Origin: a virus
Virus record (IMG/VR): IMGVR_UViG_3300005537_000036
Span: 1-45,381 of that record
Length of the DNA: 45,381 nucleotides
Strand: one strand, 5' to 3'
Shown in pieces: positions 8,101 to 43,780 of the stretch. Numbering within the stretch: position 1 is the stretch's first letter; each line of letters opens with the position of its first letter. Both the position numbers and the translations under genes were made by a program. Under the pieces are notes generated by a model. The model made no database searches. It was not told the DNA's origin and was given only the letters and a program-made list of their open reading frames with translations.

Positions 8101-9300
8101 GAAGGCGTTATACGCCTGCTTCTCCTGAGGTACGTTTAGACCTCGCATATACCATGTCTCAAACTGCTTCTTAGCCTGATCTACAGCGTCAAAGGTGCCA
8201 TTTGACATATCCCACGTTGCAGAAGGAGTAACATGAAGGAACTTGGGGCCTTCCCACATATGAAGTTGCTGTACCTGCTTCAGAACCGGAGCCTTATACA
8301 TGGCTGGCAGTCTATCAATGGCAAACCTGTCGGTTCGGGATCCATACAGAGCCGCATGGGTTGCAAGAACGTGGAGTCCAGTCTGAACATCTCTAGCATC
8401 ACTAAGAGCGACTGCGGTTGCCTGAGGAATATGAGAGCCACTCGCTGCTGCTTCTCGGATGATGGTATAGGGGTTCTGACCCCTAGCCCACTCTACGAAA
8501 GCCGTTGTCGGTTTGTAATTCCTAGCAAACGTCTCAATTCCTTCAACACCATCCTTAGCAGCGGCAGCCAACCTAGCATCCTCCATTGCCTTGACGGCCT
8601 TGAATGGAGTACCAAGATAGGATGAAGGGTCACTAGACATTGCAAATCCAGCATCTGCTGTACCAGATATAATCTTGAAACCGACCGAGCCTGGAGTGAA
8701 GTGGACGCTGCTAGCCAGCATCTGACCCATTGTCTGACCCTTCATGGATGCCTGCCATGCCTGGCTGAGATCACCCTTGGTAGTATGTTCAATGGCTCCG
8801 ATAGCGCCGACAGCGCCGGCGCCAAGGAGAGCAGCGCCACCAGCCGCTGCCCATACAGGAGCAGTACCAGCAGCGATTACCCCACCAGCAATAGCACTAG
8901 CACCACCGACGACAGGCATTACCCAGCCAGGGACTCCTGCACTCTTGGCAAGCCTATCCAGATGGTCAAAGAACCTCTTACCATCTCCCAATACGTTCAT
9001 AACAGCCCCAAAGTGGCTCAGAAGGCCCTTGTGCTTGGTTATGGTATTGGTTGGGACGTTACCGACTACAGGGTCAGTGGATGTAGACGTGTCAGGGCCT
9101 GGGTCCTGTCCTGCCTGCTGAATCGATGCCTGTTGTGCTGAGTAGTTGGCTAGTAGCTGGACTGCGGGAGTTTCATAGCTGCTATTGGCAGCCGTGAAGG
9201 CAAGAGAAGGCTGAGCAAAGATGCTAGAACTCGGCTGGGCCGCATTGGCCTGGTCGAAAGGAGCCAGATTCTGGCTTAGAGTGTCTAGGGGATCTGCCAT
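5140..9300 (-). CDS. Very large internal virion (DNA ejection) protein
   Basis: At 1386 aa this is the largest gene. A disordered N-terminus (about 85 residues) is followed by a Gly/Ala-rich hydrophobic segment near residues 128-172 (GWVMPVVGGASAIAGGVIAA and on) that could cross a membrane. The rest is long, mixed helical sequence with no nuclease, protease or transglycosylase motif that I recognise. Podoviruses commonly carry one protein over 1000 aa that is stored in the capsid and extruded to form a channel across the cell envelope; length, hydrophobic segment and neighbours match that. A tape measure is the alternative, but no long-tail genes are present. Confidence 0.6.
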   Translation of the reverse strand: MADPLDTLSQNLAPFDQANAAQPSSSIFAQPSLAFTAANSSYETPAVQLLANYSAQQASIQQAGQDPGPDTSTSTDPVVGNVPTNTITKHKGLLSHFGAVMNVLGDGKRFFDHLDRLAKSAGVPGWVMPVVGGASAIAGGVIAAGTAPVWAAAGGAALLGAGAVGAIGAIEHTTKGDLSQAWQASMKGQTMGQMLASSVHFTPGSVGFKIISGTADAGFAMSSDPSSYLGTPFKAVKAMEDARLAAAAKDGVEGIETFARNYKPTTAFVEWARGQNPYTIIREAAASGSHIPQATAVALSDARDVQTGLHVLATHAALYGSRTDRFAIDRLPAMYKAPVLKQVQQLHMWEGPKFLHVTPSATWDMSNGTFDAVDQAKKQFETWYMRGLNVPQEKQAYNAFIASKMDQFIRAGKSDQLQMIYDAQFGPQGGLKALGLTDDQIKRMASEHNWLGMAQVKLAKDKLNLGQNIDAFAAPTYADLGEARRLGMPGVKGELMRKGASLEERATAVTNKMKVLWLARPAYILRVALDEGLNSMARFGVHPLEWANSASDAWIKSFTMNPKAGPVRHELADALQFVHDHLTTEVTGFKDVPKMATPREVLSAGMDRDVASVRKLRLGISDTGYREPPTHLNPAIRWLQQEGTKSGIVGKYMLRGESGYDRSLIQIANYQIRRDPVGIAMLNVENQSKAAIMAAGKLAYVDHPDATPPTMMYNLLFKGPGDIGPIVPKGLRPVLATRDLSMNDLAGIDRSTLPYNIWGPSSKTGGGLLHTFSEGFHHSTATFLNNTVRTPTWQMQYMKTYQSLLKRATDTGALDAGEISRDELAHQAANSTTRDVLSAIHRTSERTRLDVLTKSFIPFNYAWIQFVKRWGTTFEKNPGFVRALANITAAGKTDGWFDQNPYGQLEWHFPVGNDFAQHFLSIQAPTANLPFVPPMLPFSTQTLPGLSPIVTVPVNFLVTHALPTVSRGAEDKALSVENALFGPSFGSVNQPGMGFANTILGQIAPSWVNKLSMAVQGDLRDNAYGKSVIAALQYHWMKGDFNPPPQNPGETDADYQARVTRHFNDVKQSVLNESRLLHVVQSAEAFFSPYAPLPNTDGMKIPSDIRQMRAKFGPQAATKMALDKYGPNAEAYLTGSTQVSKGTLPTQAFQDFYNSHPDFFTNYPNVAAFFAPQDQGFSSFAYQEQKITGQRTSLTPNEWLLQVAIRQGDNLFYSKVKPIYDQAVAAGVSSRALAPWYAAQKQQIDDMYPGWLAYRNAASDREAQRIAAIQELQQAADDPASNNMTGITGLRNFLLNYNQAKTALQAQGLSSLTSKTAQPVRTYLNQVYLEDVQTRNPDAVAQAEAKAGTSDPGIIIANLPPLTNLSPLDEAFQYLFRYELNDFATA

Positions 9301-9771
9301 TTAGAAACTTGGTGACCTGCTAGCTTCCATTCGCAACTGTTGGTAGAGGTTCATTACGTTCTCAGGGACAGAGTCAGCTCTGGCCATAAGGTCTTCCAAC
9401 GCTGCAATAACGGTTGACTGAGGAATTACCTTCTGACCACGAATTGAAGATGGAGCAGTTACGGGTTCATTAGGTCGTTGTGTCGGGTGACTAAGGAGTT
9501 CAAGACTGTTTGGCGGTAGTGGAGCCCCAAGTGGCTGTTGACGTTGAGGAATAGGAGAAGGTCCGGTAGGAGCAGGCCCAGCCCCCAGCGATGGCGGAGG
9601 AGTACCACCCGGGGATGCCGGAAGGGGGACGGCTTGCTGAGCCTGCTCAAGCTGCTTGGCTTTCCCATAAGGTAGGCCAGTAGGTACTCTAACTGGTTGC
9701 CCAGGAGCTTGATCTGTACGTTGTGAGAATTGGCCTGGACCACTAACAGGCGGTGCTCCAACAGTTGCCAT
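9301..9771 (-). CDS. Small Pro/Gln-rich virion protein
   Basis: A 156-aa protein, mostly disordered, rich in Pro, Gln and Gly, with a helical C-terminus (STVIAALEDLMARADSVPEN). It ends one base before the giant internal protein begins and starts on the last base of the next gene upstream. Function is unknown. A linker or minor internal protein is a guess from position. Confidence 0.5.
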   Translation of the reverse strand: MATVGAPPVSGPGQFSQRTDQAPGQPVRVPTGLPYGKAKQLEQAQQAVPLPASPGGTPPPSLGAGPAPTGPSPIPQRQQPLGAPLPPNSLELLSHPTQRPNEPVTAPSSIRGQKVIPQSTVIAALEDLMARADSVPENVMNLYQQLRMEASRSPSF

Positions 9772-9956
9772 TACTTACCTTTCTTAGCGTCTCGCCTTCC
9801 CTGTGCAGAAAGCTGAGCCATCTTCTTATTGCCATACTTCTTACGACCAGCAGCAGCAGCGATAGCTGCACCTTTCTCACCGCCACCAGCGGCGGCAGCA
9901 ACTGCTGCAAACCTACCTCCCTGGCCTAGAGGTGCTTTCTTATTGGGCTTAGCCAT
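9771..9956 (-). CDS. Small basic Ala/Gly/Lys-rich protein
   Basis: A 61-aa very basic protein (MAKPNKKAPLGQGGRF, an Ala/Gly run, then KKYGNKKMAQ and a Lys-rich end). Composition suggests nucleic-acid contact inside the capsid. Short basic proteins of this kind occur between portal and capsid genes in several phages. Nothing more specific can be shown. Confidence 0.55.
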   Translation of the reverse strand: MAKPNKKAPLGQGGRFAAVAAAAGGGEKGAAIAAAAGRKKYGNKKMAQLSAQGRRDAKKGK

Positions 9957-9965
9957 GTTTAGTCC

Positions 9966-10424
9966 TTAGAAGGGAGGAGTACCGGGTGGAATTAGCTCAC
10001 CGACAGCGGTGCAGTTGACTTCGGTGAAGGTACCGGCGTTGACGGTCTGAAGGGTAAGAGTGACTGAGTTGGCAGCAGGGGCGATGACGACAAAGTGCGT
10101 CTGAGCAAAGCCAGATCCTGAGTCACCAACTAGACCTGATGCAGCATTGGCGCCTGCATAGGCGGTGCAGCGGAGATAGTTACCGGCAGCCGGAGTTACG
10201 TTGGTTCCAGCAGTAGCAACAATACCTGTCGCCTGAGCAGCGACCGCACCAGCCGCAGCTTCACCACAAGCACATTGTAGAGTAATGACGCCAACCCAAG
10301 TACGACCTGCTGGAACAGTTAGGAGCGTAGTCGCTGCCTGTGTCGTAGTGACAGAGGAGAAGGCGTCGAGAAGGTTAGCAGAGTAAATTGGCTGCGGGCC
10401 GGGAATTACTGCAAGAGTAGCCAT
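9966..10424 (-). CDS. Small beta-rich virion protein
   Basis: A 152-aa protein rich in Ala, Thr, Val and Gly with alternating hydrophobic residues, as in a beta sandwich (VITLQCACGE, HFVVIAPAANSVTLTLQTVN). It starts 11 nt downstream of the portal gene. Composition resembles the 117-aa and 130-aa proteins at 35554 and 44475, so all three may be head or fibre decoration proteins. That is inference. Confidence 0.5.
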   Translation of the reverse strand: MATLAVIPGPQPIYSANLLDAFSSVTTTQAATTLLTVPAGRTWVGVITLQCACGEAAAGAVAAQATGIVATAGTNVTPAAGNYLRCTAYAGANAASGLVGDSGSGFAQTHFVVIAPAANSVTLTLQTVNAGTFTEVNCTAVGELIPPGTPPF

Positions 10425-10435
10425 ATGTTAGTCCT

Positions 10436-12187
10436 TTATTGAGGGATGCCTGGTGGCCCTGGAGGTCCAGCACCGGGCTGGATCCCAGGAACCACGTTCG
10501 CACGATTCGCCAACTGTGTTTGAGGAGCGGTCCTAGCCCCACGGACCAACTGATTCTGCGCTTGCTTTACTAGATTGCCTGGGCTAAGCAACTGATCAAG
10601 CTGAGGAGCTTGGCCAGGAGGAGCCTGTCCAGGCTGTCCTGTCTGTGCCATCTGACTCTGTTGCTCTTGCTGTTGCTCCATCTGGATTCGAGTAATATCT
10701 TGCCAGATGTCTTCAATTTCCTTCCCTTCCTTGCGCTCTGAAATCATACGGGCGACTACATCTGGAGCCAAGGAGCCCTGGGCCAACTGACCTTCGATTG
10801 ACTTGGTAAGAGTCATACGCATATCGTCTACGTCCATCTTCTGGATTTCACGAATTGGGGAGTCGATTTCAGGTAGACGTTCCATAACACTTAGTCGGGA
10901 GAGGTTATGAGCCCCTTGCAACTGGAGCATACGTACTGTTTCGGCGGGGTCGGCCCCGGAGAGAGATCGCACGTACACCACCATGTCTTCGGAGAAGTCT
11001 CCTGAACCCTCACTTCCCATTGTTCGGGCCATAGGTGGGATGAGTCCATAGGCTCTAGAGAAAGCGTCATCAAGGACAGTCTGGAGGTAGGCGACGTTAT
11101 CGTCAACTGTAACTGTGAGCTGTTCCAGTCCTTTGCCGGTAGCGATGCTAGCCACTGGCTCCCCCGAGAGTTGGGCGGGAAATTGACCACCAAGGCGGAT
11201 TGCCCTTTCGAGTCGATCAAGCTCATTGAATATCTGGGGGGACATATTGTTGACGAGCTTGTTGGCAGATGCCCCTGGCATTGGAACGATCTGGTTGACT
11301 GCTCCTGGTCCCATTGCCCAACGGCCCTGGTTTGAGGAGACTTCACCAATGACCACAGTTTCCGCAGAGACTTGCTGCCCAGCATAAGACATCACCATTC
11401 CAAAGAGTTTCGCCTGTGCGATGAGAGCAGCAATTACGTTATCAAATTGGCCGTGAAAGTCGAGGTCGCAAGAGAAACCACGAGGAATAATGACCATAGG
11501 CTGTCCAGGCACAGGCGATGACTGGTAGTCGAGGAATCCAATCCCCGGCTCTAGCATGGCAGTGGTGACACCATCTCCATCGAAGTATTCACCAATGGTG
11601 ACGTTCTGGACTTCCTCAGTTGCCTTCGTCGGTAGGTACCTGTCAATATCTGAACCATACATAGCCCTAGCCTGCCAGACAGACATCTGGTTTGCAAAGA
11701 GTACATTGACAACATCAGGCTTGTGGGGATAGACTGTCCCTGGGAAGCAGGTAAGGGGATCCCTGACTTCAATAATGGGGATGTGGTATTCAGGGGCTGG
11801 TCTGACAACCAACGGTGCCATATCGTGAGTAACTAGCCAATATGCAGCCTGGCGCCTAGTTCCAGCTAGGTTCATTCTGTTGGTGTAGTCTAGAAGCCTC
11901 TGTTCATGCTTCTCGGCCTTTAGTCGCTGTGAGTCACTATTTGTGTCGATGAGTGGTTGGACATCAAGGCGTGGCATGCGGCCCACACGTTGAGATATAG
12001 TCCGAGCAGCAGCCCAGATAAGGTTACCAACAACCGGTTCTTCACCAGGCTTCACCAAGTCCTTGAATACGATGTCGAGTTTGTTAGAGAGTACATCCCG
12101 TACCCGTTGTCCTTGCCAGATACGGTGCTGGTGAGCCCCTTGGCGTTGCTTATAACACTGGTAGATGTAATCGGGGCTGACAGCCAT
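10436..12187 (-). CDS. Portal protein
   Basis: A 583-aa protein that begins one base after the terminase stop. It fits phage portals in length, in order (terminase then portal), and in layout: an N-terminal region that opens with aromatic and basic residues, a mixed core, a long helical part near residues 400-520, and a disordered Gln/Pro-rich C-terminus. Twelve copies would form the vertex channel through which the terminase pumps DNA. There is no single diagnostic motif, so the call rests mainly on position and overall pattern. Confidence 0.75.
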   Translation of the reverse strand: MAVSPDYIYQCYKQRQGAHQHRIWQGQRVRDVLSNKLDIVFKDLVKPGEEPVVGNLIWAAARTISQRVGRMPRLDVQPLIDTNSDSQRLKAEKHEQRLLDYTNRMNLAGTRRQAAYWLVTHDMAPLVVRPAPEYHIPIIEVRDPLTCFPGTVYPHKPDVVNVLFANQMSVWQARAMYGSDIDRYLPTKATEEVQNVTIGEYFDGDGVTTAMLEPGIGFLDYQSSPVPGQPMVIIPRGFSCDLDFHGQFDNVIAALIAQAKLFGMVMSYAGQQVSAETVVIGEVSSNQGRWAMGPGAVNQIVPMPGASANKLVNNMSPQIFNELDRLERAIRLGGQFPAQLSGEPVASIATGKGLEQLTVTVDDNVAYLQTVLDDAFSRAYGLIPPMARTMGSEGSGDFSEDMVVYVRSLSGADPAETVRMLQLQGAHNLSRLSVMERLPEIDSPIREIQKMDVDDMRMTLTKSIEGQLAQGSLAPDVVARMISERKEGKEIEDIWQDITRIQMEQQQEQQSQMAQTGQPGQAPPGQAPQLDQLLSPGNLVKQAQNQLVRGARTAPQTQLANRANVVPGIQPGAGPPGPPGIPQ

Positions 12188-21982: not shown

Positions 21983-22183
21983 GTGGAGCTAGACAAGGAG
22001 CAAGTGGTAGCCATAGTGATAGCTATGCGTCAACGTGATCTATATCAGGAAGCGTTACAGATGCTAGCTCAGGCAGAAGGGAATACACTTGCTTTCAACG
22101 TACTACAAGCAGCAGATCAAATCAACAACCTACCCATAGGAGGTATTAGTGGACGACATGGGCACATCCGTGAAGCGACTTGA
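21983..22183 (+). CDS. Small helical protein before the AAA ATPase
   Basis: A 66-aa protein from GTG 21983 behind AGGAGG. Two helices (AIVIAMRQRDLYQEALQMLA, TLAFNVLQAADQ). It overlaps the ATPase gene by 35 nt, so the two are coupled and may interact. Confidence 0.6.
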   Translation: MELDKEQVVAIVIAMRQRDLYQEALQMLAQAEGNTLAFNVLQAADQINNLPIGGISGRHGHIREAT

Positions 22184-23603
22184 GAAGGAAGTGCTACAAC
22201 TCCTTGCAGAGGCTGGTGGAAAGCTCACCGCAGAGGATGATGTGGTCTTCCAGGGTACGAAGATCATCTTGCCGGAGAAGAACAGTCTTCAGCAGACTGT
22301 GGATTTCCTACAGCGCAAGATGCAGATGGACGAGGAAGAGACTCGTTTCGGCAGGGTTTACAACTACCGACCCTGGGATGGTGCCAGAGCTACCATGCAC
22401 GCCATCCGTCGCACCTTCGGTGCAATGGGTCAGGAAGCAACCTACACCTTCTTCGGGAAGCAGCCTCCTCAGCTCGTGGATCTTCCAACTGGTGTCAATA
22501 CTACGGAGCAGGTGCCGTGGGGTAAGGTAACCATTCCTCTCCTACCCGGTACTGTATTCCACGTCGGAGCATCTGAGCATCCAGAACTCGGATCGATCTT
22601 TGCTCTTGCAGCAACTGGCCCCAGGAAGTATCGGTTCGAGATCGAGGGAGTCTTCAACCTTATCCAGAAGGAACTGGAAACCAACTCCATGTACCGGGGT
22701 AAGGCTTTCGATGGAGCAACTCAGCCCAACTTCCTTGACCTGTCAGGTGTCGATCCTGATAAGGTTGTCTACAGCCAGGAAGTTATGACTCAGTTGGAAG
22801 CCAACGTCTGGGCTCTCCTTCGCTACACCGAGAACATGCGTCAACTGTCCATTCCCTTGAAGCGAGCTGTCCTGTTCGAGGGTCCGTATGGGACTGGCAA
22901 GACGCTGGGTGCCTATCTCACTGCTAAGGAGGCAGTAGACAATGGCTGGACATTCGTTTACTGTCGGCCCGGTCGTGATGACCTTGACTACACCATCCAA
23001 ACAGCCAGGCTTTACCAGCCCGCAGTTGTGTTCTTTGAGGATATCGACATCGTGGGTGGAACTGACGGTGGGGCTAACTCACTTTCACGCCTTCTCGACC
23101 TATTCGATGGTCTTCAGGCTAAGGATTCTGAGATCGTTTGCGTCCTCACTACCAACCACGTTGACCAGATCCATAAGGGAATGGTTCGACCTGGACGCCT
23201 TGATTCCGTAATCCACATCGGTGAGCTGGATGATGACGGCATGGTCAAGCTGATCACTTCAGTAGTTCCTCCTCAGCTCATGAGCCCAGATATCCAGTGG
23301 GATAAGGTCTGCCGGGCAATGGAAGGGATGCTTCCTGCATTCGTCCGTGAAGCCATTGACCGTACTCTCCGCTACAACCTGGCACGTAATCAGGGAAGGG
23401 CAACTCAACTGACCACTGATGACTTTGTGGAAGCAGCAGTCGGCCTTCGGCCGCAGTTGGCTCTCATGTCAGATGCTGGAGAGCGGGAGAAGCGACCGAC
23501 TCTGGAGACTGCAATTTCGTCTACTGTCCGTGAAGCAGTATCTAGCCTCAGGATCAGGAACGAAGAATGGGGAGATAGCCAGATCATCGACCCCGAAGAC
23601 TAG
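22149..23603 (+). CDS. AAA+ ATPase
   Basis: A 484-aa protein from GTG 22149 behind AGGAGG; ATG 22158 is possible. Residues about 1-225 are an unfamiliar substrate or oligomer domain opening with a helix. The AAA module follows: Walker A FEGPYGTGKT near residue 240, Walker B VVFFEDIDIV near 298, sensor CVLTTNHVD near 335, and arginine finger RPGRLD near 348. It is of the classic Cdc48/proteasomal-ATPase type rather than MoxR. It has no C-terminal HbYX tail (ends IIDPED), so docking onto a 20S proteasome is not supported. Such ATPases recur in actinophages without a known job. Confidence 0.8.
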   Translation: MDDMGTSVKRLEKEVLQLLAEAGGKLTAEDDVVFQGTKIILPEKNSLQQTVDFLQRKMQMDEEETRFGRVYNYRPWDGARATMHAIRRTFGAMGQEATYTFFGKQPPQLVDLPTGVNTTEQVPWGKVTIPLLPGTVFHVGASEHPELGSIFALAATGPRKYRFEIEGVFNLIQKELETNSMYRGKAFDGATQPNFLDLSGVDPDKVVYSQEVMTQLEANVWALLRYTENMRQLSIPLKRAVLFEGPYGTGKTLGAYLTAKEAVDNGWTFVYCRPGRDDLDYTIQTARLYQPAVVFFEDIDIVGGTDGGANSLSRLLDLFDGLQAKDSEIVCVLTTNHVDQIHKGMVRPGRLDSVIHIGELDDDGMVKLITSVVPPQLMSPDIQWDKVCRAMEGMLPAFVREAIDRTLRYNLARNQGRATQLTTDDFVEAAVGLRPQLALMSDAGEREKRPTLETAISSTVREAVSSLRIRNEEWGDSQIIDPED

Positions 23604-32434: not shown

Positions 32435-33007
32435 ATGAAGAAGTGGCTTGCTTTACCATCGGTTATTCTTGCGGGTGTGGCACTCTTTGGGTGCAGCAGC
32501 GGTATCACGACTACATCAGGTCAGAAAGCGGAGAATCAAGCACAGGCAGCCGATACACAGATTCTAGTGAACAACCAGCCAGTACCCCACTACAACTACA
32601 GTCAGATCCGTCAGAATCTGATCGAGCTGGAGAATGCACAGGCTAACGGAGTCCAGACGACTTCCTTCTTCTTCAATCAGGGAGTCCAGGATCCTATTGG
32701 CTCATGTCCTAGCATTGGTGCTCCAATTCCTGTAAGTGACCAACTCACCAACCCTCAGCAGGTGATCAATGCCTACGACAATGGAGTATCACAAGCCGTC
32801 ATTTCTCAACAGGATCCTACAGGCATATATACAGGCCAAGGGTCCGGCACCTATGTCATCTGCATCAACGACTCAGGACAAGCCTACGCCAGCTATTGGG
32901 AAGGGTTCGTTGAGACCGTCTTCGGACCAGCATCATGGAATACGACCACACATCAGGTACAGCTCCTCGGACCACCAACTGGAGGGTTCAGTAAGGCCAA
33001 GGGCTAG
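32435..33007 (+). CDS. Secreted lipoprotein
   Basis: A 190-aa protein from ATG 32435 behind AAAGGAGG. The signal peptide MKKWLALPSVILAGVALFGC ends in a lipobox (LFGC) with Cys20 as the lipidation site. The mature part starts with a Thr/Gln/Ala linker and has two Cys (GSC, VIC). It would be anchored on the outer face of the host membrane. Phage lipoproteins often block superinfecting phages; that is a guess here. Confidence 0.8.
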   Translation: MKKWLALPSVILAGVALFGCSSGITTTSGQKAENQAQAADTQILVNNQPVPHYNYSQIRQNLIELENAQANGVQTTSFFFNQGVQDPIGSCPSIGAPIPVSDQLTNPQQVINAYDNGVSQAVISQQDPTGIYTGQGSGTYVICINDSGQAYASYWEGFVETVFGPASWNTTTHQVQLLGPPTGGFSKAKG

Positions 33008-33135
33008 TGGACTATGCGGGGAGATTCCTACTGGTAGCAGTGATCTGGATATGGATCCTCCTGCTGACCTGGATAGAAACAGGCAAACTAATCCCGTGGA
33101 AGAAGAAAGGAAAGGTAGACGAGACAGAAAGATAA
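33007..33135 (+). CDS. 42-aa membrane anchor (N-part of a frameshifted protein?)
   Basis: GTG 33007 overlaps the lipoprotein stop. A single membrane helix (FLLVAVIWIWILLLTWI) is followed by a basic, charged linker (PWKKKGKVDETER) and TAA 33133. The +1 frame directly at the stop continues as a long coiled coil with no start codon of its own (next entry), so this may be the anchor of a larger protein made by +1 frameshifting at AGA-TAA. Confidence 0.6.
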   Translation: MDYAGRFLLVAVIWIWILLLTWIETGKLIPWKKKGKVDETER

Positions 33136-33352
33136 GATTCAGTCAGCGGTCAAAGTAGCTGATGGTGCTTTAGCTACTTTCCGTTCAGCCCACGACCAGC
33201 TACAGGTAGCTGTTGATAAGCTATCTGAGGCAAAGGATGAGCACAATGAGCTAGCTAGTCACCATGCACAACAAGCAGGCGAGGCTCATAAGCTCATTCA
33301 GCAACACAACAAGACCATCGACAAGCTAAAGGAGTTCTTGGGAGAGGAGTAA
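33134..33352 (+). CDS. Coiled-coil domain without its own start codon
   Basis: From AAG 33134 the frame reads 72 codons of unmistakable coiled coil (KIQSAVKVADGALATFRSAH, VAVDKLSEAKDEHNELASHH, ending KEFLGEE). The only NTG in it is a TTG four codons from the end, and the frame is closed upstream at 33116. A +1 slip at AGA-TAA joins it to the 33007 membrane anchor, giving about 114 aa with a transmembrane N-terminus and coiled-coil stalk. ATT 33137 as a rare start, or a one-base error, are alternatives. Confidence 0.5.
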   Translation, partial: KIQSAVKVADGALATFRSAHDQLQVAVDKLSEAKDEHNELASHHAQQAGEAHKLIQQHNKTIDKLKEFLGEE

Positions 33353-33562
33353 TTACTCTCCGCCCTTCTGCTTGTAAGCAGCGACGAAATCAGCAGCAGA
33401 CTCCTCTTCGGTCATATCCCCAAGGATATCATCGATCTCATCTAGGAGTGCTTCAGTCCTAGCCTTCTCGGCTTCAGGATCAGTTACATGCTTAGGGATT
33501 GGGGAGGCTTCGGCCTCCCCTTTCTTATGCTCTGATTTAGGTACTCTAACTTGTTCTGACAT
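33353..33562 (-). CDS. pup: Pup-like prokaryotic ubiquitin-like protein
   Basis: A 69-aa protein. The C-terminal third, ALLDEIDDILGDMTEEESAA then DFVAAYKQKGGE, matches actinobacterial Pup: the LLDEIDD(I/V)L helix that binds the proteasomal ATPase, the DFV-x-AY segment, and the terminal Gly-Gly-Glu. Ending in Glu rather than Gln, it would not need deamidation by Dop before ligation by PafA. A nine-residue acidic stretch between the two motifs is longer than I recall for host Pup. The N-terminal half is charged and disordered, as expected. It is the last gene of the virion-lysis strand, so probably made late, and could tag proteins for, or jam, the host proteasome. Confidence 0.85.
   Translation of the reverse strand: MSEQVRVPKSEHKKGEAEASPIPKHVTDPEAEKARTEALLDEIDDILGDMTEEESAADFVAAYKQKGGE
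33501..33526 (+). terminator. Rho-independent terminator of the plus operon, inside pup
   Basis: GGGGAGGC-TTCG-GCCTCCCC (33501-33520) followed by TTTCTT on the plus strand. It lies 150 nt past the last plus-strand gene and within the antisense coding sequence of the Pup-like gene, where it encodes part of the flexible N-terminal linker. Confidence 0.8.
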
Positions 33563-34175
33563 AGCTTATCCCGGGTTCCTCTTGAATTGTTGCTTCACTA
33601 GCTATCGTCCAGCTTCCGTAATCTTCTTTCTCTGCATAGTTTACATCACAAGTAACTCCATCTATGACAATCTGCTCTCCTGTCTGGTAGATGTGAGCCT
33701 CAGGATGGACTCTGCCAGAGGACCAGGCTATAGTTTGCCAGATGTACTGAACATGGCCATCCTTATACATCTGGTCACAGATGAAGTAATCACCATAAAG
33801 TCCAACTGGATAACCACTTGCCTTCTGGAACGCATCCACATAGGCAGCTATATTGGCCCAGTCTCCCTGGGGTGCGTCGTAGTCAACTGCTATGTAGATA
33901 GGGCTGGTAGTCGGCTGGTGATCGGTGACTGCCTGGAACTTGGCAGCATTGCCATCCACGGTACCACTAGAAGGCCCTGAAACCGCCCGGTTGGCACTAT
34001 CCTCCCAAACAGTCACTAGACGCCTTCCTGTGGAGCAAATAGCTAGCGCTTCCAGGGGATTCACTAATTTACTAGTGTCGTGGCTATAGTATCTCGCTAC
34101 AAATGAGTAATCTTCAGGTATCTTCAGTACATTTGGGTGGCTCCAAGCATAATCGATGCCTTTAGTGACTATCAT
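33546..34175 (-). CDS. Endolysin, DUF1906 glycoside-hydrolase-like
   Basis: A 209-aa protein from ATG 34175 behind GGAGGA. The TIM-barrel marks of the DUF1906 / Rv2525c-like family are present: KGIDYAW at the N-terminus, VARYYSHDTSKLVNP, LVTVWEDS, IYIAVDYDA, YPVGLYGDYF and CDVNYA near the end. Members act on cell-wall glycans of actinobacteria and serve as phage lysins. No signal peptide was seen, so release should need a holin, for which the 78-aa protein just upstream is a candidate. It overlaps the Pup gene by 17 nt. Confidence 0.8.
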   Translation of the reverse strand: MIVTKGIDYAWSHPNVLKIPEDYSFVARYYSHDTSKLVNPLEALAICSTGRRLVTVWEDSANRAVSGPSSGTVDGNAAKFQAVTDHQPTTSPIYIAVDYDAPQGDWANIAAYVDAFQKASGYPVGLYGDYFICDQMYKDGHVQYIWQTIAWSSGRVHPEAHIYQTGEQIVIDGVTCDVNYAEKEDYGSWTIASEATIQEEPGISYVRTS

Positions 34176-35907: not shown

Positions 35908-36104
35908 TAGTTATTCAAGATGTTTAGTAGTTCAATATCATCGGGAGTGTCAGGAGTGTAGATCTTAGCAGCGATTGGAAAGATGATACTAGTAGGATTG
36001 GCACCTAGGGCTAGAGTGTTAGTCTCATACTGAGTTTGAACACTAGGATTGACAGTAGTAGTGGACGCTCCTACATATCCAGTACGGGCAATGGAAGTAC
36101 TCAT
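35907..36104 (-). CDS. Small virion protein
   Basis: A 65-aa Thr/Ala/Pro-rich protein with an acidic helical C-terminus (PDDIELLNILNN). Its start overlaps the stop of the 797-aa tail protein. Function unknown. Confidence 0.5.
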   Translation of the reverse strand: MSTSIARTGYVGASTTTVNPSVQTQYETNTLALGANPTSIIFPIAAKIYTPDTPDDIELLNILNN

Positions 36105-38497
36105 TATGGGACCTCGTAGCAGGTAAGGAGGACTAGGTTGGCCCAGCCTCGCTCTGGCGACTTCTGACGGAACACCTTGAGAGCAGCTACTCTAACATTG
36201 AGAACAGTAGTGTGTTCCTCACCATAACCAACTGGCTGGAACTGCACAATTGTCTGACTGTCTCGTAGTCCTGACAACGTAGCCTCAATATTAGCAGCTA
36301 AACCAGCTCCGCTGAGTGGATAAGGAGTCTTGTTGTTCAGGTCCATATACTGGTAGGCTTTCACAGCGATCTGGTAGATCCTACGAGGCTTGACACCGTA
36401 GATAGCCCCTAGACCAGCCTTCTTCAGAATAGGAGTGTTGTTCGGTAGGTGGACTATATCCTGGGTAAAGGTGACTCTAGTAACAGCAGTTCCAGACGAG
36501 ACTCTCACAGGGGTTTCAAGGTACGTGGGAGCTACATAGCCAGCGGGAGGGGTGGTACCAAAGGTCAGACCAGCTATAGACGAGAGTGACATGAAGGTAT
36601 TACCACCATCCTGTGACCACGATAGAGCTAGAGCAGAACCAACTCCTAGTGGAAGGCTACCAATCTCTCCCTGGAGAATCATCTTCGTCTTGTCAATGTT
36701 CCAGTCCATAAGTGACGATGTGAGATAGCCAGTAGCAAGGTAGGCTGACTGCTGCATCCAGACTCCTGTACCAGCTATAGAGAAGACAAGCTGTCCGTGA
36801 AACACAGTAGCATCCGCCATAGTAGCGACAGTACCAGTATCAGCAATACCAATATGAGTAGACCAACCACCAGTGGTCGGGAAGTAGACTCCTAGACCAG
36901 TATAGCCCTTGATTCCAACACCAGTGACCGCTGCTTGAGGATTATTGATAGTAAAGTAGGCTTTGTCCAGGTATGAAGTACCTGCTCCAATACCGTAGTC
37001 ATAACCATCGTCAGCGCCAAAGGCTTGGATCAGCTCAATGGTTAGAGTTCCATTGCTCTGTGGGAAAGCACGGTAGAGAACTCCCAACCCAACACTCGTA
37101 CCATGAGTCCCTTGGCGTCTACCACCAATAAGCATACCGGCTCCCAGGAATGGGATAAGGGTCAGAGCAGTCTCACCAGGAGGCATAGCGACTGCTACGA
37201 AAGGAGCGTTGGTTCCATCCCAGGCATAAATCTGAGATCTACCAGCCTTGGTTGCAGCGAAGTAGATGAATCCAGCAAGCTCGCTAATATGCGACACTGT
37301 GAATCCATCTGGTAAGATGTAGATAACGGTTGACGTTGAGCCAGGGCCAATGCTGAAGAACTGCCATTGAGTAGATGATCCAGGTACCAGTCCAGCTCCG
37401 TAGAGTGAATCCTTAGCCCACGCTATGACTTCACAGTCATTCACGGTAGAGTAAATAGCTGGATTACCAGCATTCGTGGCTTCTAGGTCGTCCAGGTCAA
37501 AGGTGCTAGTAACCGTTGGAATGAGGCTAAGCCACTCAATAGAGTTGATCGTGGACAAGGAAGGAGTACCAACTACAGCCATGTCAGATATATTCCAGGT
37601 GGCTTTACGCCAGTTCCAAGAGATGCCTGCTGGAATGGTATAGTAGAAGTAGTTAGAGGAGTCCTGCTTGAACCTGACAGTTAGAGTATCAGGACCAGGA
37701 TTGCCATTGATGCTAGCAGCCCAGTCGATACTGAATTGCACATAGCTAGACCAGTTCTGAGATGTTCCATATGTATAGACTAGAGGATTACTACCAGGAC
37801 CAAAGGTGAAGCGAAGGAAGCCAGTTCCCTCTACCTGCCCATTGGTGATAATCTGTGGACTACCACCAGACTGTGAGAAGTTGGTAATAGCATCAAAGGA
37901 GTTTAGCTGGGTATTGGTACCAGTCGGGATTTCACTTACTCCCTCTACCCCAACTGCACACCAGACATTCTTTCCGTCAGTAGCCAGATCAGATGCTGAA
38001 TGACTAACAGCACCATTAGGAACAGTAGTAGCATCTGAGCCATTGGAAGTTGAGACTCGGCTTAGGTTAGGACCACCTACTGCGGTGTAGATGTATCTAT
38101 CCGTAGCTGCCATAGTCCCTGTACCAGCAGTTACAATCTTCTGAGTGCTAGGAAGCAGGGAAGCCTGACCAATGGTGGAGAACAGATCAACTCCTACCGA
38201 AGACTGGAATGCTCTTTCCGATGGATAGTTAGGAAGGTTCTGGTCAATCCTAGCCTGTCCTGCTCCATAGTCCCAGGAACGTTGGCTGACCCAATAGAGG
38301 AGGTCCAGCTTGTTCTCGGTCATCTCCTCGTTAGAGATATCAGTACGTTCCAGCAGAGTATCAGCTTCAGTGACTAGGTAGGCAGTCTTCCAGGGCGAAA
38401 GAAGCTCCCTATCCACCTCCCAAGACACAAGGTAGCCGACACCATTCAGGGCAAAGTCATAGAGATAAGGCAGGGAACCATCAGCGAGAATAGCCAT
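36104..38497 (-). CDS. Large tail (nozzle or hub) protein
   Basis: A 797-aa protein, nearly all beta, Gly/Thr/Ser-rich with repeated Tyr and Asp (DRYIYTAVGGPNLSRVSTSN, SQIYAWDGTNAPFVAVAMPP). Blade-like repeats about 50 residues long suggest a beta-propeller core, as in podoviral nozzle or tubular tail protein B. It overlaps the adaptor gene by one base, the gene order usual for tail tubes of podoviruses. The first 100 residues are more helical and may bind the adaptor ring. No enzymatic motif was found. Confidence 0.65.
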   Translation of the reverse strand: MAILADGSLPYLYDFALNGVGYLVSWEVDRELLSPWKTAYLVTEADTLLERTDISNEEMTENKLDLLYWVSQRSWDYGAGQARIDQNLPNYPSERAFQSSVGVDLFSTIGQASLLPSTQKIVTAGTGTMAATDRYIYTAVGGPNLSRVSTSNGSDATTVPNGAVSHSASDLATDGKNVWCAVGVEGVSEIPTGTNTQLNSFDAITNFSQSGGSPQIITNGQVEGTGFLRFTFGPGSNPLVYTYGTSQNWSSYVQFSIDWAASINGNPGPDTLTVRFKQDSSNYFYYTIPAGISWNWRKATWNISDMAVVGTPSLSTINSIEWLSLIPTVTSTFDLDDLEATNAGNPAIYSTVNDCEVIAWAKDSLYGAGLVPGSSTQWQFFSIGPGSTSTVIYILPDGFTVSHISELAGFIYFAATKAGRSQIYAWDGTNAPFVAVAMPPGETALTLIPFLGAGMLIGGRRQGTHGTSVGLGVLYRAFPQSNGTLTIELIQAFGADDGYDYGIGAGTSYLDKAYFTINNPQAAVTGVGIKGYTGLGVYFPTTGGWSTHIGIADTGTVATMADATVFHGQLVFSIAGTGVWMQQSAYLATGYLTSSLMDWNIDKTKMILQGEIGSLPLGVGSALALSWSQDGGNTFMSLSSIAGLTFGTTPPAGYVAPTYLETPVRVSSGTAVTRVTFTQDIVHLPNNTPILKKAGLGAIYGVKPRRIYQIAVKAYQYMDLNNKTPYPLSGAGLAANIEATLSGLRDSQTIVQFQPVGYGEEHTTVLNVRVAALKVFRQKSPERGWANLVLLTCYEVP

Positions 38498-39432
38498 TAG
38501 ATACCAGTCTGTCCAACCCAGACCTTCTGAGGAACACGGTCAAGGCGCTTAGCACGAATCTGTGTAGCTCTGTCATACCAACGCTTCTCAAGGTCGTTGA
38601 GCCATTGCATATTGAAGTTACTAGGTAGAGGAGTTGCCTGCTCACGGTAGAACATTGCTTCATCCAGACGCCATCGAGGCGTCATACGGACACCGACCAC
38701 GTAGAGAACAGCACCAATGGCAATAAGATCATCACCTTCTGCTGGGAACGTTGCGTCAAGAACATCTGTCTCGTTGACAAGGTTAGGCCAGCGCTTCTCA
38801 TAGAGGACATGGATAGCTCTACCTGGCATACCAATGCGCTCATAGACCTCGAATCCAAGACCAGTAGAAACCACAGACGTATCGTAGGTGTTTAGGTCAG
38901 AGTGATCTACGTCCATATACCTATTGAAACCTGGGAGTAGCCATGCAACACGACGGACTGCAAGTGCATCAGAAGGAGCTGCATAGATCCAGATGGTAGG
39001 CTGGAATGAACCAGCAGTAGTAATATCCCACTGTAGCTTGGGGAAGTAGAAAGAGCACCAGTCGTTTAGAGCAACGTTGACACCTTCCCAAATAGTCTCA
39101 TGCAGGAAGCGAGGATCACGACGAGCGAATGTACCGCTGGTGTGAGCAGCAGCATAGCTAGACTCGAATGCTCTATTAGCAGTAACGGTCCCAGGACCAG
39201 CAGTCCCACTATTAGCAACAGATGCAAGTATCTGGAATAGCTCAAAGTCTACCTCCATACGTGAACCGACAGGCCACTGACTGACATCATTTACTGTAAA
39301 CTGAATACTACCGCCAGTAGGGGTAGCAGCAATATTAGAAGTAATGAAGTCAATGGAGTTCACGTCTTCCAGAAGTCGGTAGACACGAAGCTCTATATCT
39401 GATAGCTGAACGTTGCTGATGGGAAAGGGCAT
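38497..39432 (-). CDS. Head-tail adaptor-like protein
   Basis: A 311-aa protein from ATG 39432 behind GGAAGAG; the frame is open 14 codons further without a site. It starts SNVQLSDIELRVYRLLEDVN and alternates helices and strands, including PRFLHETIWEGVNVALNDWC and LDEAMFYREQATPL. Position between small head genes and the large tail protein fits the podoviral adaptor ring that joins portal to tail. The call is from context and general pattern. Confidence 0.55.
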   Translation of the reverse strand: MPFPISNVQLSDIELRVYRLLEDVNSIDFITSNIAATPTGGSIQFTVNDVSQWPVGSRMEVDFELFQILASVANSGTAGPGTVTANRAFESSYAAAHTSGTFARRDPRFLHETIWEGVNVALNDWCSFYFPKLQWDITTAGSFQPTIWIYAAPSDALAVRRVAWLLPGFNRYMDVDHSDLNTYDTSVVSTGLGFEVYERIGMPGRAIHVLYEKRWPNLVNETDVLDATFPAEGDDLIAIGAVLYVVGVRMTPRWRLDEAMFYREQATPLPSNFNMQWLNDLEKRWYDRATQIRAKRLDRVPQKVWVGQTGI

Positions 39433-39433
39433 A

Positions 39434-39751
39434 TTACTCTTCCTTCTTCTCCAACGTAATTGGAGGCTTACCAATTAGTTCTTTCGCTACATCAGGATGG
39501 TAGGTCGTTGCCATGTCGTCCGCTCTAAAGGGTCTTCCGAGACGATCTGATTCACTCAGGGCACGAATAGACTGCTTCGTCTGAGTACCCCACGGCAGCG
39601 ACCCTTCATCCACGGCTCGCTTGAAGAGTGCAAGCTCCTGGTTCTTGTTCTTCTCTGCCTCGAAGGCGCTGTAACGATCACAGAAGATTGTCATAAGTTT
39701 GCAGCCAAAGCAATCTTCTACAAAGAATGGATGGGTTTCAAGATGTTTCAT
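39434..39751 (-). CDS. Small protein with CxxC motif
   Basis: A 105-aa protein. HPFFVEDCFGCKLMTIFC near the N-terminus has a Cys-x2-Cys plus one more Cys and could bind metal. The rest is charged and helical. Similar short proteins sit beside tail genes in other actinophages; function unknown. Confidence 0.55.
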   Translation of the reverse strand: MKHLETHPFFVEDCFGCKLMTIFCDRYSAFEAEKNKNQELALFKRAVDEGSLPWGTQTKQSIRALSESDRLGRPFRADDMATTYHPDVAKELIGKPPITLEKKEE

Positions 39752-40980
39752 TAGACCACCTTGTAGGCTTGGATACCTGTTCCGCCGATGTCGGAAGCAT
39801 AACCGGACAATAGAATCTCATCTCCTGTAAATACTGAGCCTGGAGGAGCTAGGGTAATGTAGGTACCATACCCGGTAGGGGCATTCGTGGTGACGGCATT
39901 CATTAGTTCCTCTGCAAGTATATCATCAATTACGTAGGTTCGTCCACCAAGATAGAGCCGCTGTGGCGCAGACCAGGCAGATTGGTCAGTTCCCATAGTC
40001 TCAAAGCCTCGTGGTCCAAAGAGGTACTTGTTACGAGGATTCTCAGTCCAGGGGTAAGGACCAATCCACTCTTCCCAGACTCCATTAGAATTGCGAATGA
40101 CAGTAGACGGTACACCTCTATGAACCCTGGTCCAGAGGCTAAAGACAGGCTCAGTCTCTAGAGGGTAGTTGATACGATAGATCTGAGGGGATGGGAATAG
40201 CCACAGAGGTCCAATATCATGAGGGTTACGGCTGACCGTAGCAACCGACTTCCATCGAAGCCTCAGGTAAACAGTAGGAGTCTGAGTGGCTAGACCAATA
40301 TGGGGCGGTTGGGCCGGAGGAGGAGTAAGACCTGCACGACCCTGTAGGACAACAGATACTCTGCTTCGGGTAGACCGAATGCGGCTGTTACGAAGTTCGA
40401 CCTCGACAACGATGGGAACAGTTCCCTTGGTGGCAGGAACCTGCGCTCCGTTGTGAATAATGATAGCAGGAACTCGGGTACGGCTTAGAAGCCTTGACCG
40501 ATGCTGAACCGCCAGAATTACCTTGGCATTAGGAGTAGGAACGCTGGGAGGTGGTACTGCTGGATTGCGTTGTAGAACAGTACGGTTGACGAACGACCGT
40601 AGCCTTGAAACAATGGCCGCTCTAGTAGCGTCAGGACTCTCCTGAATTGGCTGAACTGGCGGTAGAGCGAAGGGAGCCGTGGCGTACTCACGAGTGATAG
40701 TATGAGTATTGAAGCCTTGGCTGAATAGACGCTTGCTCGTCTTGACAGCAGTTACGTTGACAACGATTGCTACAGTAGTACCGGGTTGTGCTCCAGTAAT
40801 TACCTCAACCGAAGCATTGATGATTGTTGTGACATTAGCAGACTGACGGTAGAAACGCCGACGTTGCTGAGTGTCAGTAACAACAATCGCATGAGGCGAA
40901 GGAACAGGGAATGTGCCAAGGCGTCCGGTATTGGATTTGATTACAGGCGGGTTGGGTTGACGCCTACCAAGGCGTGCCAT
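39751..40980 (-). CDS. Tail or fibre structural protein
   Basis: A 409-aa basic, Pro/Arg/Val-rich protein. The first 260 residues are repeats of a beta-type pattern with Arg-rich turns (VILAVQHRSRLLSRTRVPAI, VSVVLQGRAGLTPPP); the last 150 are aromatic and globular. It overlaps neighbours at single bases. Probably a virion protein of the neck or fibres; no known motif. Confidence 0.5.
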   Translation of the reverse strand: MARLGRRQPNPPVIKSNTGRLGTFPVPSPHAIVVTDTQQRRRFYRQSANVTTIINASVEVITGAQPGTTVAIVVNVTAVKTSKRLFSQGFNTHTITREYATAPFALPPVQPIQESPDATRAAIVSRLRSFVNRTVLQRNPAVPPPSVPTPNAKVILAVQHRSRLLSRTRVPAIIIHNGAQVPATKGTVPIVVEVELRNSRIRSTRSRVSVVLQGRAGLTPPPAQPPHIGLATQTPTVYLRLRWKSVATVSRNPHDIGPLWLFPSPQIYRINYPLETEPVFSLWTRVHRGVPSTVIRNSNGVWEEWIGPYPWTENPRNKYLFGPRGFETMGTDQSAWSAPQRLYLGGRTYVIDDILAEELMNAVTTNAPTGYGTYITLAPPGSVFTGDEILLSGYASDIGGTGIQAYKVV

Positions 40981-41690
40981 TACCAGCTCGTTCCTACGAG
41001 AACAGTTGTATTAGGAGCGACTGTTACATTACCAATCTCACCTGGCGCACCACCAGAGCTTGATGGAGTAGCAGCGACAAAGGCGATAAAGGTAGCAATC
41101 CCACCAAAGGCAAGACGGTTGTTTGTCCAGTTGGCAGTATCTGTATATGCACCAGTCGAGGAAACAATGCGCTCACCAGTGAACAGCAGGTTATTAGTAA
41201 AGGAGTGAGTGGCATTGGTCCAGGTATTGCTTGTAACCGAGCCAGACCAGCCCATAACCGTAAACACCAACTCATTAGCATTTGTAGTGGTAGCAGTGGT
41301 ACCAGTAGCCTGGGTCTGCTCAGTAGAACCACCATCACGGCCCACTGCTGTCTTGTCTAGAGGACTAGAGTTGACGTTCCCTGTATACTCATGCTGGTCA
41401 ATATTGATAGTCCCATTGGATCCTGAGAATGACCACGTAACATTCTTAGACTCAGCAGCACCAGCGATCTTATATGCCAGAGCTACTGTAATAGCACCAT
41501 TGGAACAATCCTCATGAAAGGCTACTGAGTAACCAGAAGGAGTAGTAACACTAGAGAAACCAGACGCAAGAAGGCAGACAGATATAAGCAGATCACCCTG
41601 CGTTGGGGTGTTAGGGTAGGAACAGGTAAGGGTAGTGTTATTACCCGTGCTAGCAGTACAGTCTTGTGCAGTAACTCTAGATATAGCCAT
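40980..41690 (-). CDS. Fibre-like beta-sandwich protein
   Basis: A 236-aa protein from ATG 41690, overlapping the tailspike stop (TAATG); an ATG three codons earlier is less likely. Thr/Ser/Asn-rich beta pattern (ATTTNANELVFTVMGWSGSV, NRLAFGGIATFIAFVAATP), like carbohydrate-binding or concanavalin-type fibre domains. Probably takes part in receptor binding with the neighbouring tailspike. Confidence 0.6.
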   Translation of the reverse strand: MAISRVTAQDCTASTGNNTTLTCSYPNTPTQGDLLISVCLLASGFSSVTTPSGYSVAFHEDCSNGAITVALAYKIAGAAESKNVTWSFSGSNGTINIDQHEYTGNVNSSPLDKTAVGRDGGSTEQTQATGTTATTTNANELVFTVMGWSGSVTSNTWTNATHSFTNNLLFTGERIVSSTGAYTDTANWTNNRLAFGGIATFIAFVAATPSSSGGAPGEIGNVTVAPNTTVLVGTSW

Positions 41691-43297
41691 TAGGTCCAAC
41701 CACCTCCTGGATTGGAGGAATTACCTAGATAGCTTAGCATACTATAATAGGGATTGGCAGTACGCCAGATGTTAGCTGGGTTGTGGGAGTCAGCCAGAAT
41801 ATCAGACTCGGACAAAGCACTATGTCCAGCATCCATAGTAGGAGCGACTAGCGAGTCGTTAGTAACAGTAACGGTGACAGTACCACCACTCTGAAGGATA
41901 ACATAGCCAGGAGATGTAATGGCGCTACCAAATCCACTACTCCAAGATGCAGCCCAGATAGTAACGTGGTCCATTGTAAAGCTATTAGGTCCCGCACCAG
42001 CATCGGTAGCAAACTGACGGTGGGTAGTAGTATCAGACACGTTGTTGTTGACTGGCATCCAAACCCGAGCCATAGAGTTACCTGACCACCCTGGGTTAGA
42101 AGTTCCACCACCCTCGCAGATAATTGGATGACGGAAACCAGCACCAGTCATAGAGTCTAGGATTTGATTATTAGTGCAAGTACCGGCAGTTGAGATCATC
42201 TCAATACCGTCCATGTGGTTTACGTCAGGAGTTGGCTGACTGGTCCCCGCACCAGTCTCAAAGGACAGTAAGACGTTCTTCTGAGTCATACCCTGAATGA
42301 CACAGTTGGTAGCTCGCTTTAGGAAGAAGGAAGATGTCTTTATGTCATGCAGACTTGGACCGTACCAGCCACAGTTGGTAGGACCTCCTGTCACAGCACC
42401 ACCAGGACCAAACGTGACGATGCCCCAAGGGAACACCTGCCATGCGGTCACACCCGTATAGTCCTGATGGTCTGTATACCAAAGGATCACTCTATCAGGG
42501 TCTGTACCTGACAACGATAACTGAGTACCACCAATACTACCATAGTTGAAGCTAGTGTTGACGAAGGCAATCCCACCAAGTACGAGACGGGACACGTAGC
42601 TATCAAGGCTTAGGATTCCACCATCACCAGTCCAGAGAAGATTCCCGTTGGCGTCAGTACCACCGCCTTGACAAATCCATCCTAGTGGATCTTGTGCCAT
42701 TACTTGCAGCCAACCGTTATACTTACCACCAGTCGGTCTCTGTGCAGGACCAATAAGTGAGGATCCAGCAGTAATAGAACCAGATCCCCCCGTGCAACCA
42801 GTGAAGCCACTGGAGTTCAGTCCAGTGTAGGTAATAGTCTGAGGTCCATTGGATGAGTTGATCTGGAACGTTGCTGAACCAAGCCAGTCGGCATCCCCCG
42901 GCTTAGACAGGGCAACTGAAACATTATCAGTCGTGTTGATTGTACCCAATGGTAACGTGCCAGTGGTTGCCGATGTAGTACGACCAGCACTACCCAACTG
43001 CATGACACCAGAGTTATAGATGCCAGCAGTCATCGTCCGTGGGCTATTAGCCGTGGTATTCGCTACGAAGATAGTAACATCGTGTAGGGGCGAGTTGATG
43101 TAACGCCAGATGTTATTACCAAGGTCCATGACCCCTTTAGACTTTGCCATAATAGAGCGAGCACTATTACGGACAATAGTAGGTCGGACTAAAGGGCGAT
43201 CATAACGAACAAGCGCAGCCGGAGTTGTCGTATAGACAACCGGAGGCGGCGCTTGCAATACCCCAGGGACGGTCCCTCGCCCCGCAATCGGGGCCAT
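41690..43297 (-). CDS. Tailspike-like beta-helix protein
   Basis: A 535-aa protein. The first 60 residues are a Pro/Val/Arg-rich virion-binding head. The remainder is Gly/Asn/Thr-rich with short turns and stacked hydrophobics (SFFLKRATNCVIQGMTQKNV, MDGIEMISTAGTCTNNQI), the pattern of right-handed parallel beta-helices found in phage tailspikes. Such spikes bind and often cut host polysaccharide. Acidic residues in the helix could be catalytic but I cannot assign them. Confidence 0.65.
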   Translation of the reverse strand: MAPIAGRGTVPGVLQAPPPVVYTTTPAALVRYDRPLVRPTIVRNSARSIMAKSKGVMDLGNNIWRYINSPLHDVTIFVANTTANSPRTMTAGIYNSGVMQLGSAGRTTSATTGTLPLGTINTTDNVSVALSKPGDADWLGSATFQINSSNGPQTITYTGLNSSGFTGCTGGSGSITAGSSLIGPAQRPTGGKYNGWLQVMAQDPLGWICQGGGTDANGNLLWTGDGGILSLDSYVSRLVLGGIAFVNTSFNYGSIGGTQLSLSGTDPDRVILWYTDHQDYTGVTAWQVFPWGIVTFGPGGAVTGGPTNCGWYGPSLHDIKTSSFFLKRATNCVIQGMTQKNVLLSFETGAGTSQPTPDVNHMDGIEMISTAGTCTNNQILDSMTGAGFRHPIICEGGGTSNPGWSGNSMARVWMPVNNNVSDTTTHRQFATDAGAGPNSFTMDHVTIWAASWSSGFGSAITSPGYVILQSGGTVTVTVTNDSLVAPTMDAGHSALSESDILADSHNPANIWRTANPYYSMLSYLGNSSNPGGGWT

Positions 43298-43300
43298 AGG

Positions 43301-43780
43301 TTAGATCCTTGTAACCCACATAGAGCTAGTCACACCAACCTGCTGTGCAGGGGTAATTTCCAGCCCGAAGCCCATGTTACCTGAGTTGAAATAGTCAGGC
43401 TCATCGCCAAGCGGATAGTCGTAAATGACGGTACCACCGTTAGGAGTCAAAGACCACTCGTCAAAGTAAGCCTTGACAGTCGGTTCAGCGGTGAAGTTGA
43501 AAGCACCCGCCATGTTGGTAGCCGCAATGGTACGACCTGACACCTGAAGAGGAGTTGAAGCAGTGGAGGTACCAGAGGTAGCAACAGTGTAGACATACAG
43601 ACGCACGATAACAGGCGTGTTAGATGCAGTAACACCGTTGAAACCAAGACGGACCTTCTTCAACTGAAGCCCATAGTCAGTAGCGGTAGAGGTAACGGTC
43701 ATTGCCGTCTGGAGAGCCGGAGAAGCAAGGCTGTTCCAGAACGTAGCGCCGGAGTCGACCTTATAGATAGGAGCAGTCAT
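43301..43780 (-). CDS. Beta-rich virion protein
   Basis: A 159-aa Thr/Ala/Val-rich protein with repeated strands (LQLKKVRLGFNGVTASNTPV, IVRLYVYTVATSGTSTAST). It lies four bases before the tailspike gene. Probably a decoration or fibre-base protein. Confidence 0.5.
   Translation of the reverse strand: MTAPIYKVDSGATFWNSLASPALQTAMTVTSTATDYGLQLKKVRLGFNGVTASNTPVIVRLYVYTVATSGTSTASTPLQVSGRTIAATNMAGAFNFTAEPTVKAYFDEWSLTPNGGTVIYDYPLGDEPDYFNSGNMGFGLEITPAQQVGVTSSMWVTRI

Follow-up and report, generated by a model that had tools for sequence, protein, structure and literature searches.

A virus record of 45,381 bases from IMG/VR (IMGVR_UViG_3300005537_000036), analysed over its full length and referred to here as the window, carries a lone gene for a homologue of Pup, the small tag which actinobacteria attach to proteins destined for the proteasome, and not a pupylation locus. 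Similar lone genes recur in other, unrelated phages, and the copy in the window is an unusual variant of this phage class. The disordered N-terminal segment of Pup serves to thread a tagged protein into the ATPase of the proteasome. Our preferred reading, to which we give slightly better than even weight, is that the window gene supplies a working, ligatable tag which host PafA would attach late in infection.

A Pup Homologue Encoded by a Phage

The translated product of the gene (MSEQVRVPKSEHKKGEAEASPIPKHVTDPEAEKARTEALLDEIDDILGDMTEEESAADFVAAYKQKGGE, 69 aa; Table 1) matched the Pfam Pup profile (PF05639) over profile positions 17–69 of 69, with an E-value of 4.3e-8 and a score of 34.4 bits against a curated cut-off of 27. 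Its relatives of solved structure at E <0.01 were Pup chains throughout (best E 2e-5; phmmer, PDB), and no family matching it was found in PHROGs. The profile search bears out the initial annotation, which had called the protein Pup-like from the motifs LLDEIDDIL, DFVAAY and KQKGGE, each of which was found in the sequence, and strong sequence evidence backs its assignment as a Pup homologue encoded by a phage. The C-terminal Gly-Gly-Glu or Gly-Gly-Gln required of the family is present in the end KQKGGE.

The protein had also been described as disordered, which holds for residues 1–28, where the predicted model has no helix, and does not hold for residues 29–53 and 56–65, which are modelled as helices at low confidence (mean pLDDT 67). 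Such a pattern, as modelled, would be expected of Pup.

Pups of M. tuberculosis and C. glutamicum share with the window protein their size, an N-terminal part predicted to be disordered in the window Pup, the LLDEIDD..DFV.AY core and the QKGG[EQ] end, and the helix motif starts from residue 38 in both M. tuberculosis Pup and the window Pup. In contrast to these, the window Pup is phage-borne with no adjoining dop, prcBA or pafA, has a five-residue linker insert and EES for EEN, and carries Lys where Val or Ile is usual before Gln. The bacterial sequences of the M. tuberculosis Pup alignment served as search seeds, and in the alignments A1–A3 some phage Pups and two bacterial Pups were entered by hand, the matches themselves being database sequences.

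Table 1. Features of the window and gene contexts of pup in other phages and viral contigs.
Feature	Position	Strand	Remarks
pup gene, 69 aa	33353–33562	−	ATG start, TAA stop, encoded C terminus KQKGGE; Pfam PF05639 and PDB Pup chains
ALLDEIDDIL, codons 38–47	33422–33451	−	counterpart of PafA-bound helix H1 and end of Mpa-binding helix; M. tuberculosis Pup alignment, PMC5286830
GDMTE, codons 48–52	33407–33421	−	five-residue insert in H1–H2 linker; seen in none of 36 other phage Pups or 51 distinct host Pups
AADFVAAY, codons 56–63	33374–33397	−	counterpart of helix H2; alignment, PMC5286830
KQKGGE, codons 64–69	33356–33373	−	predicted ligatable C terminus; translated sequence
Terminator-like hairpin, TTCG loop, TTTCTT tail	33501–33520	+	inside pup coding sequence; would serve convergent plus-strand genes
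Endolysin (Rv2525c-like glycoside hydrolase)	33546–34175	−	directly upstream of pup; PF08924 E 4.4e-17; phrog_13480 endolysin E 2.5e-26
Convergent coiled-coil ORF, about 72 aa	33137–33352	+	no standard start codon found; phrog_26723 (unknown function) E 3.4e-5
Small ORF followed by the coiled-coil ORF	32992–33352	+	before convergent pup
AAA-ATPase	22149–23603	+	phrog_10440 E 3e-90
Putative virion proteins	1210–12187 and 36104–43780	−	lysine 2.7%, long lysine-free runs
Dagobah			endolysin directly before pup
L127			amidase (endolysin) directly before pup
L124			Rv2525c-type lysin shortly after pup
L109, L111, L022			amidase or endolysin within about 2 kb of pup
L119			holin near pup, within about 2 kb
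L122			UvsY before pup, UvsW-like DNA helicase after
L136, L142	pup 6540–6716 in L142		UvsY-pup-UvsW-like order, by eye
L114 type			terminase (phrog_9) after pup
L128 type			terminase (phrog_2) after pup; set unrelated to L114 type
L117			Sak4-like genes before pup
L125			thymidylate synthase after pup

Gene Neighbourhood and Probable Host

The record also encodes a terminase large subunit, an NlpC/P60 tail protein, a primase-helicase and an endolysin. Translational coupling of pup to the endolysin gene is probable because the two genes overlap, as read directly from the sequence: the pup start codon falls inside the final 17 bases of the endolysin gene. The minus-strand block which contains the endolysin gene ends with pup, and the pup stop abuts that of the convergent ORF (TAATTA, 33350–33355). 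Of the earlier proposal that pup is expressed late from the end of the lysis strand, the position is confirmed and the late timing is a reading of gene order only; that order supports a late, lysis-linked placement.

The hairpin within pup consists of GGGGAGGC-TTCG-GCCTCCCC followed by TTTCTT, and the same bases encode KGEAEASP of the Pup N-terminal region. Two terminator-like sites were found where 1.3 were expected, which is statistically weak, although the stem is strong. The first of the small plus-strand ORFs facing pup has one hydrophobic segment (LLVAVIWIWILLL), and these ORFs could be holin- or spanin-like.

The host is likely to be an actinobacterium because relatives of the primase, AAA-ATPase and lysin are mostly carried by actinobacterial phages: those of the primase almost all by Arthrobacter, Microbacterium, Gordonia, Mycobacterium and Streptomyces phages, the best relatives of the AAA-ATPase by Gordonia and Mycobacterium phages, and those of the lysin by Mycobacterium, Gordonia and Rhodococcus phages and one Alicyclobacillus phage. 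Searches with the terminase and endolysin found no close relatives of the window phage. Relatives of the AAA-ATPase occur across phages of many hosts and some are annotated as FtsH-like or as metalloproteases. The enzyme was rejected as an ARC-like partner of Pup, its family being broad and present also in Pseudomonas, Klebsiella and Escherichia phages.

Recurrence of Pup among Phages

A scan of IMG/VR with an alignment of the window Pup and two bacterial Pups yielded 23 viral contigs, and a scan with an alignment of eight phage Pups yielded 50 loci on contigs partly shared with the first; together they gave about 45 further Pup-bearing viral contigs of 4–296 kb. Sequences were extracted from 36 contigs, from Dagobah and from the window, and 37 phage Pups were compared in detail. 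The Pfam Pup profile was matched by all 18 members of alignment A2. When the 18 phage Pups were aligned together, their divergence was too great for the alignment to be used in a pattern scan.

Three matches were set aside. The only IMG/VR match of the window Pup alone (L002) is due to chance, since it is a terminator-like hairpin sequence outside any pup and the identical hairpin sequence is part of the window pup coding region. A match in Sleepyhead (E 8) was noise. MT835496 (L108, 'Bacteriophage sp.', fecal, 159 kb), in which Pup follows a large ORF resembling a proteasomal ATPase by eye, was excluded from the phage set because it was treated as bacterial; it is seemingly a bacterial chromosome fragment carrying a proteasomal locus.

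In the sampled contigs the neighbours of pup are phage genes in several unrelated contexts (Table 1). The contigs L122, L136 and L142 are T4-like, which suggests that T4-like phages of pupylating hosts exist.

The domain shared by Pup ligase and Dop (PF03136) was found in none of 48 records, the window and Dagobah included, with C. glutamicum matching as a control; many of the records are fragments and the absence holds for the sequence present in them. The contigs, as recorded, are therefore not misfiled host proteasome loci, and the phage Pups, if ligated, would rely on host enzymes. Lacking PF03136, the window does not hold a complete dop-pup-prcBA-pafA locus.

At least one cultured phage carries the gene: the Streptomyces phage Dagobah (MT711977), whose HUN42_00036 is annotated as 'ubiquitin-like protein Pup'. 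This number is a lower bound because tblastn has low sensitivity when the queries are short acidic Pups; with three phage Pup queries it missed Dagobah at the limits used. Like the window Pup, the Dagobah protein ends in GGE and is encoded directly after an endolysin gene, whereas that endolysin is of the Amidase_2 and not the Rv2525c type, the phage is a different one, and the protein has 78 aa, a VQVGGE end and a different sequence without the linker insert. The Pups of the uncultured IMG/VR phages (L109, L119, L122, L124 and others) are likewise lone Pups without a ligase but lack the insert and stand in varied gene contexts. In the available text of the paper on the Dagobah genome there is no mention of Pup or of ubiquitin, and a full-text literature search on phage Pup, with subscription papers and preprints outside its scope, gave no relevant paper. 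Thus the protein family is known and one database annotation preceded this work, while the phage gene class has apparently not been described.

The C-Terminal End

A Pup ending in GGE needs no deamidation by Dop (PMC3511204), so that the initial annotation was chemically right in proposing that the phage protein would skip this step. The property is nevertheless not distinctive: a final Glu is found in 18 of the 37 phage Pups and in 22 of the 51 distinct host Pups (Fisher p 0.67), the host sample being biased towards the most query-like matches and towards mycobacteria and their relatives. We rejected the Glu end as a phage hallmark, and it is not a phage adaptation since host Pups carry it at a similar share. 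The other 19 of the 37 phage Pups end in Gln; they would need host Dop and therefore fit the host pathway.

Two viral Pups have the altered ends AQGQ and QQSGQ (6627–6857 in L021 and 2–154 in L129); these may be non-ligatable and could represent decoys or decaying copies. The Lys of QKGG, invariant in the compared host Pups, is kept in 64% of phage Pups and replaced in others by Arg, Ser, Ala, Val or Gln, a loss which may block tagging of Pup itself.

The Linker Insert

When bound to PafA, Pup residues 38–47 and 51–58 form two orthogonal helices, while in Mpa-bound Pup residues 20–51 form one long helix (PMC5286830). The first helix motif of the window Pup begins at the same residue as in M. 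tuberculosis Pup, which places GDMTE in the linker between the PafA-binding helices and where the Mpa-binding helix ends. The acidic insert between the motifs pointed out in the initial annotation is real and has no equivalent among the other Pups compared (Table 1). Spacing between the motifs, a common feature outside the PF05639 definition, does not vary among the 51 distinct host Pups and is the same as theirs in 35 of the 37 phage Pups; the window Pup deviates by five residues and the second exception, L021, by one extra residue.

The low-confidence model shows a break between the two helices of the window Pup, and we infer that both could still bind, with altered geometry. An effect on partner recognition is possible, and the insert is predicted perhaps to shift the balance among ligase, depupylase and ATPase.

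Selection on Phage pup Genes

Within phage pup families other than that of the window, dN/dS of the last 32 codons lies mostly at 0.02–0.25, the values being rough since synonymous sites are saturated in several pairs. Exceptions are L017/L128 (0.82), L017/L134 (0.41) and L107/L126 (0.94). The N-terminal half is looser, and some pairs approach or exceed 1 there. Purifying selection on the C-terminal 32 codons is thus strong in most cases, and a disordered leader joined to a constrained binding and ligation half is the pattern that a working Pup would be predicted to show.

Possible Roles in Infection

The initial annotation offered three possible roles, labelling of host proteins, saturation of the host proteasome or shielding of phage proteins; the retained C terminus, ligatable by prediction, tilts somewhat towards a working tag. 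This preferred reading builds on what the analysis established: the protein is homologous to Pup, its gene follows the endolysin gene, the record lacks the enzymes, other phages carry pup as well, and selection acts on the C-terminal half in other phage pup families. In it, pup would probably be co-translated with the endolysin as the last gene of a late minus-strand block, and its product would keep the disordered leader, the Mpa/ARC- and PafA-binding region and a C terminus directly usable by PafA. With no ligase or deamidase in the record, host PafA would have to attach the phage Pup, PafA and a proteasome being assumed for the host. The phage protein would then top up or replace the host Pup pool late in infection, and pupylation and turnover of host proteins would continue or be redirected. 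This reading is favoured over a decoy, a lysis-specific tag and decay because the GG[EQ] end, the binding half and a leader predicted to be disordered are retained. The recurrence of the endolysin-pup order in Dagobah and L127, with an Rv2525c-type lysin near pup in L124, also speaks for it, while against it the unique insert could impair PafA or Mpa binding, and in most other phages pup has no endolysin gene beside it, so that lysis-linked timing is not general.

An abundant phage Pup could instead act as a decoy, occupying PafA, Dop or Mpa/ARC and sparing phage proteins from pupylation and degradation, with its own ligation incidental. We consider this unlikely, though not strongly so. The conserved half is the same binding half, but mere binding would make the intact GG[EQ] end superfluous, and 35 of the 37 phage Pups have nevertheless kept it. 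Lysine poverty would fit pupylation pressure: mycobacteriophages are reported as lysine deserts rich in lysine-free proteins (PMC10665810), and the virion proteins of the window phage fall below those of lambda (4.8%) and T7 (5.7%) at similar GC, these being two controls only and from another host group. However, other Pup phages are mixed in this respect, and the comparison does not support a general shortage of lysine among them.

It is less probable still that Pup serves as a lysis-linked tag on a membrane or cell-wall protein, or limits the level of endolysin, thereby setting lysis time. The overlap with the endolysin gene and the lysis genes beside or within about 2 kb of pup in Dagobah, L127, L124, L109, L111, L022 and L119 agree with such a role, but other phages carry pup among recombination genes or by a terminase or thymidylate synthase gene, so the link is not general; moreover, the last place in a late block is commonly occupied by accessory genes too. 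Slightly less probable again, and very unlikely, is that the captured gene is decaying or neutral cargo: the unique insert, the terminator hairpin of the opposite genes within the N-terminal coding region, the failure to find close relatives of the phage and a Pfam score well below the 76.1 bits of the typical phage Pup L109 are outweighed by an open frame with start, stop, helix residues and GGE intact, by purifying selection in other phage pup families and by the presence of Pup in unrelated phages.

Implications for Phage Biology

The ubiquitin-like conjugation that bacteria reportedly direct against phage, in which Hor et al. are said to have described in 2024 a host-encoded modifier that interferes with phage assembly, resembles the present case in that a small protein modifier stands between phage and host. 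It differs in that the modifier is ubiquitin-like and encoded by the host, whereas that of the window is a phage-encoded Pup.

The lone Pup of the window phage and of many uncultured phages gives the appearance that viruses tap the protein-disposal system of their hosts. A literature search for a role of the Pup-proteasome system in phage infection found no study, and the occurrence of an enzyme-less tag in many unrelated phages makes its role in infection directly testable. More tentatively, and short of calling it probable, we suggest that actinobacterial phages have captured pup repeatedly and employ it by itself as a viral effector to redirect the host pupylation-proteasome system, with the ligase-binding region remodelled in this phage by the linker insert, in a bacterial-virus counterpart of ubiquitin hijacking. 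If phage Pups do redirect degradation, phages would exploit a bacterial ubiquitin-like system as eukaryotic viruses exploit ubiquitin, and targeted degradation in actinobacteria would gain useful tools in the form of natural Pup variants.
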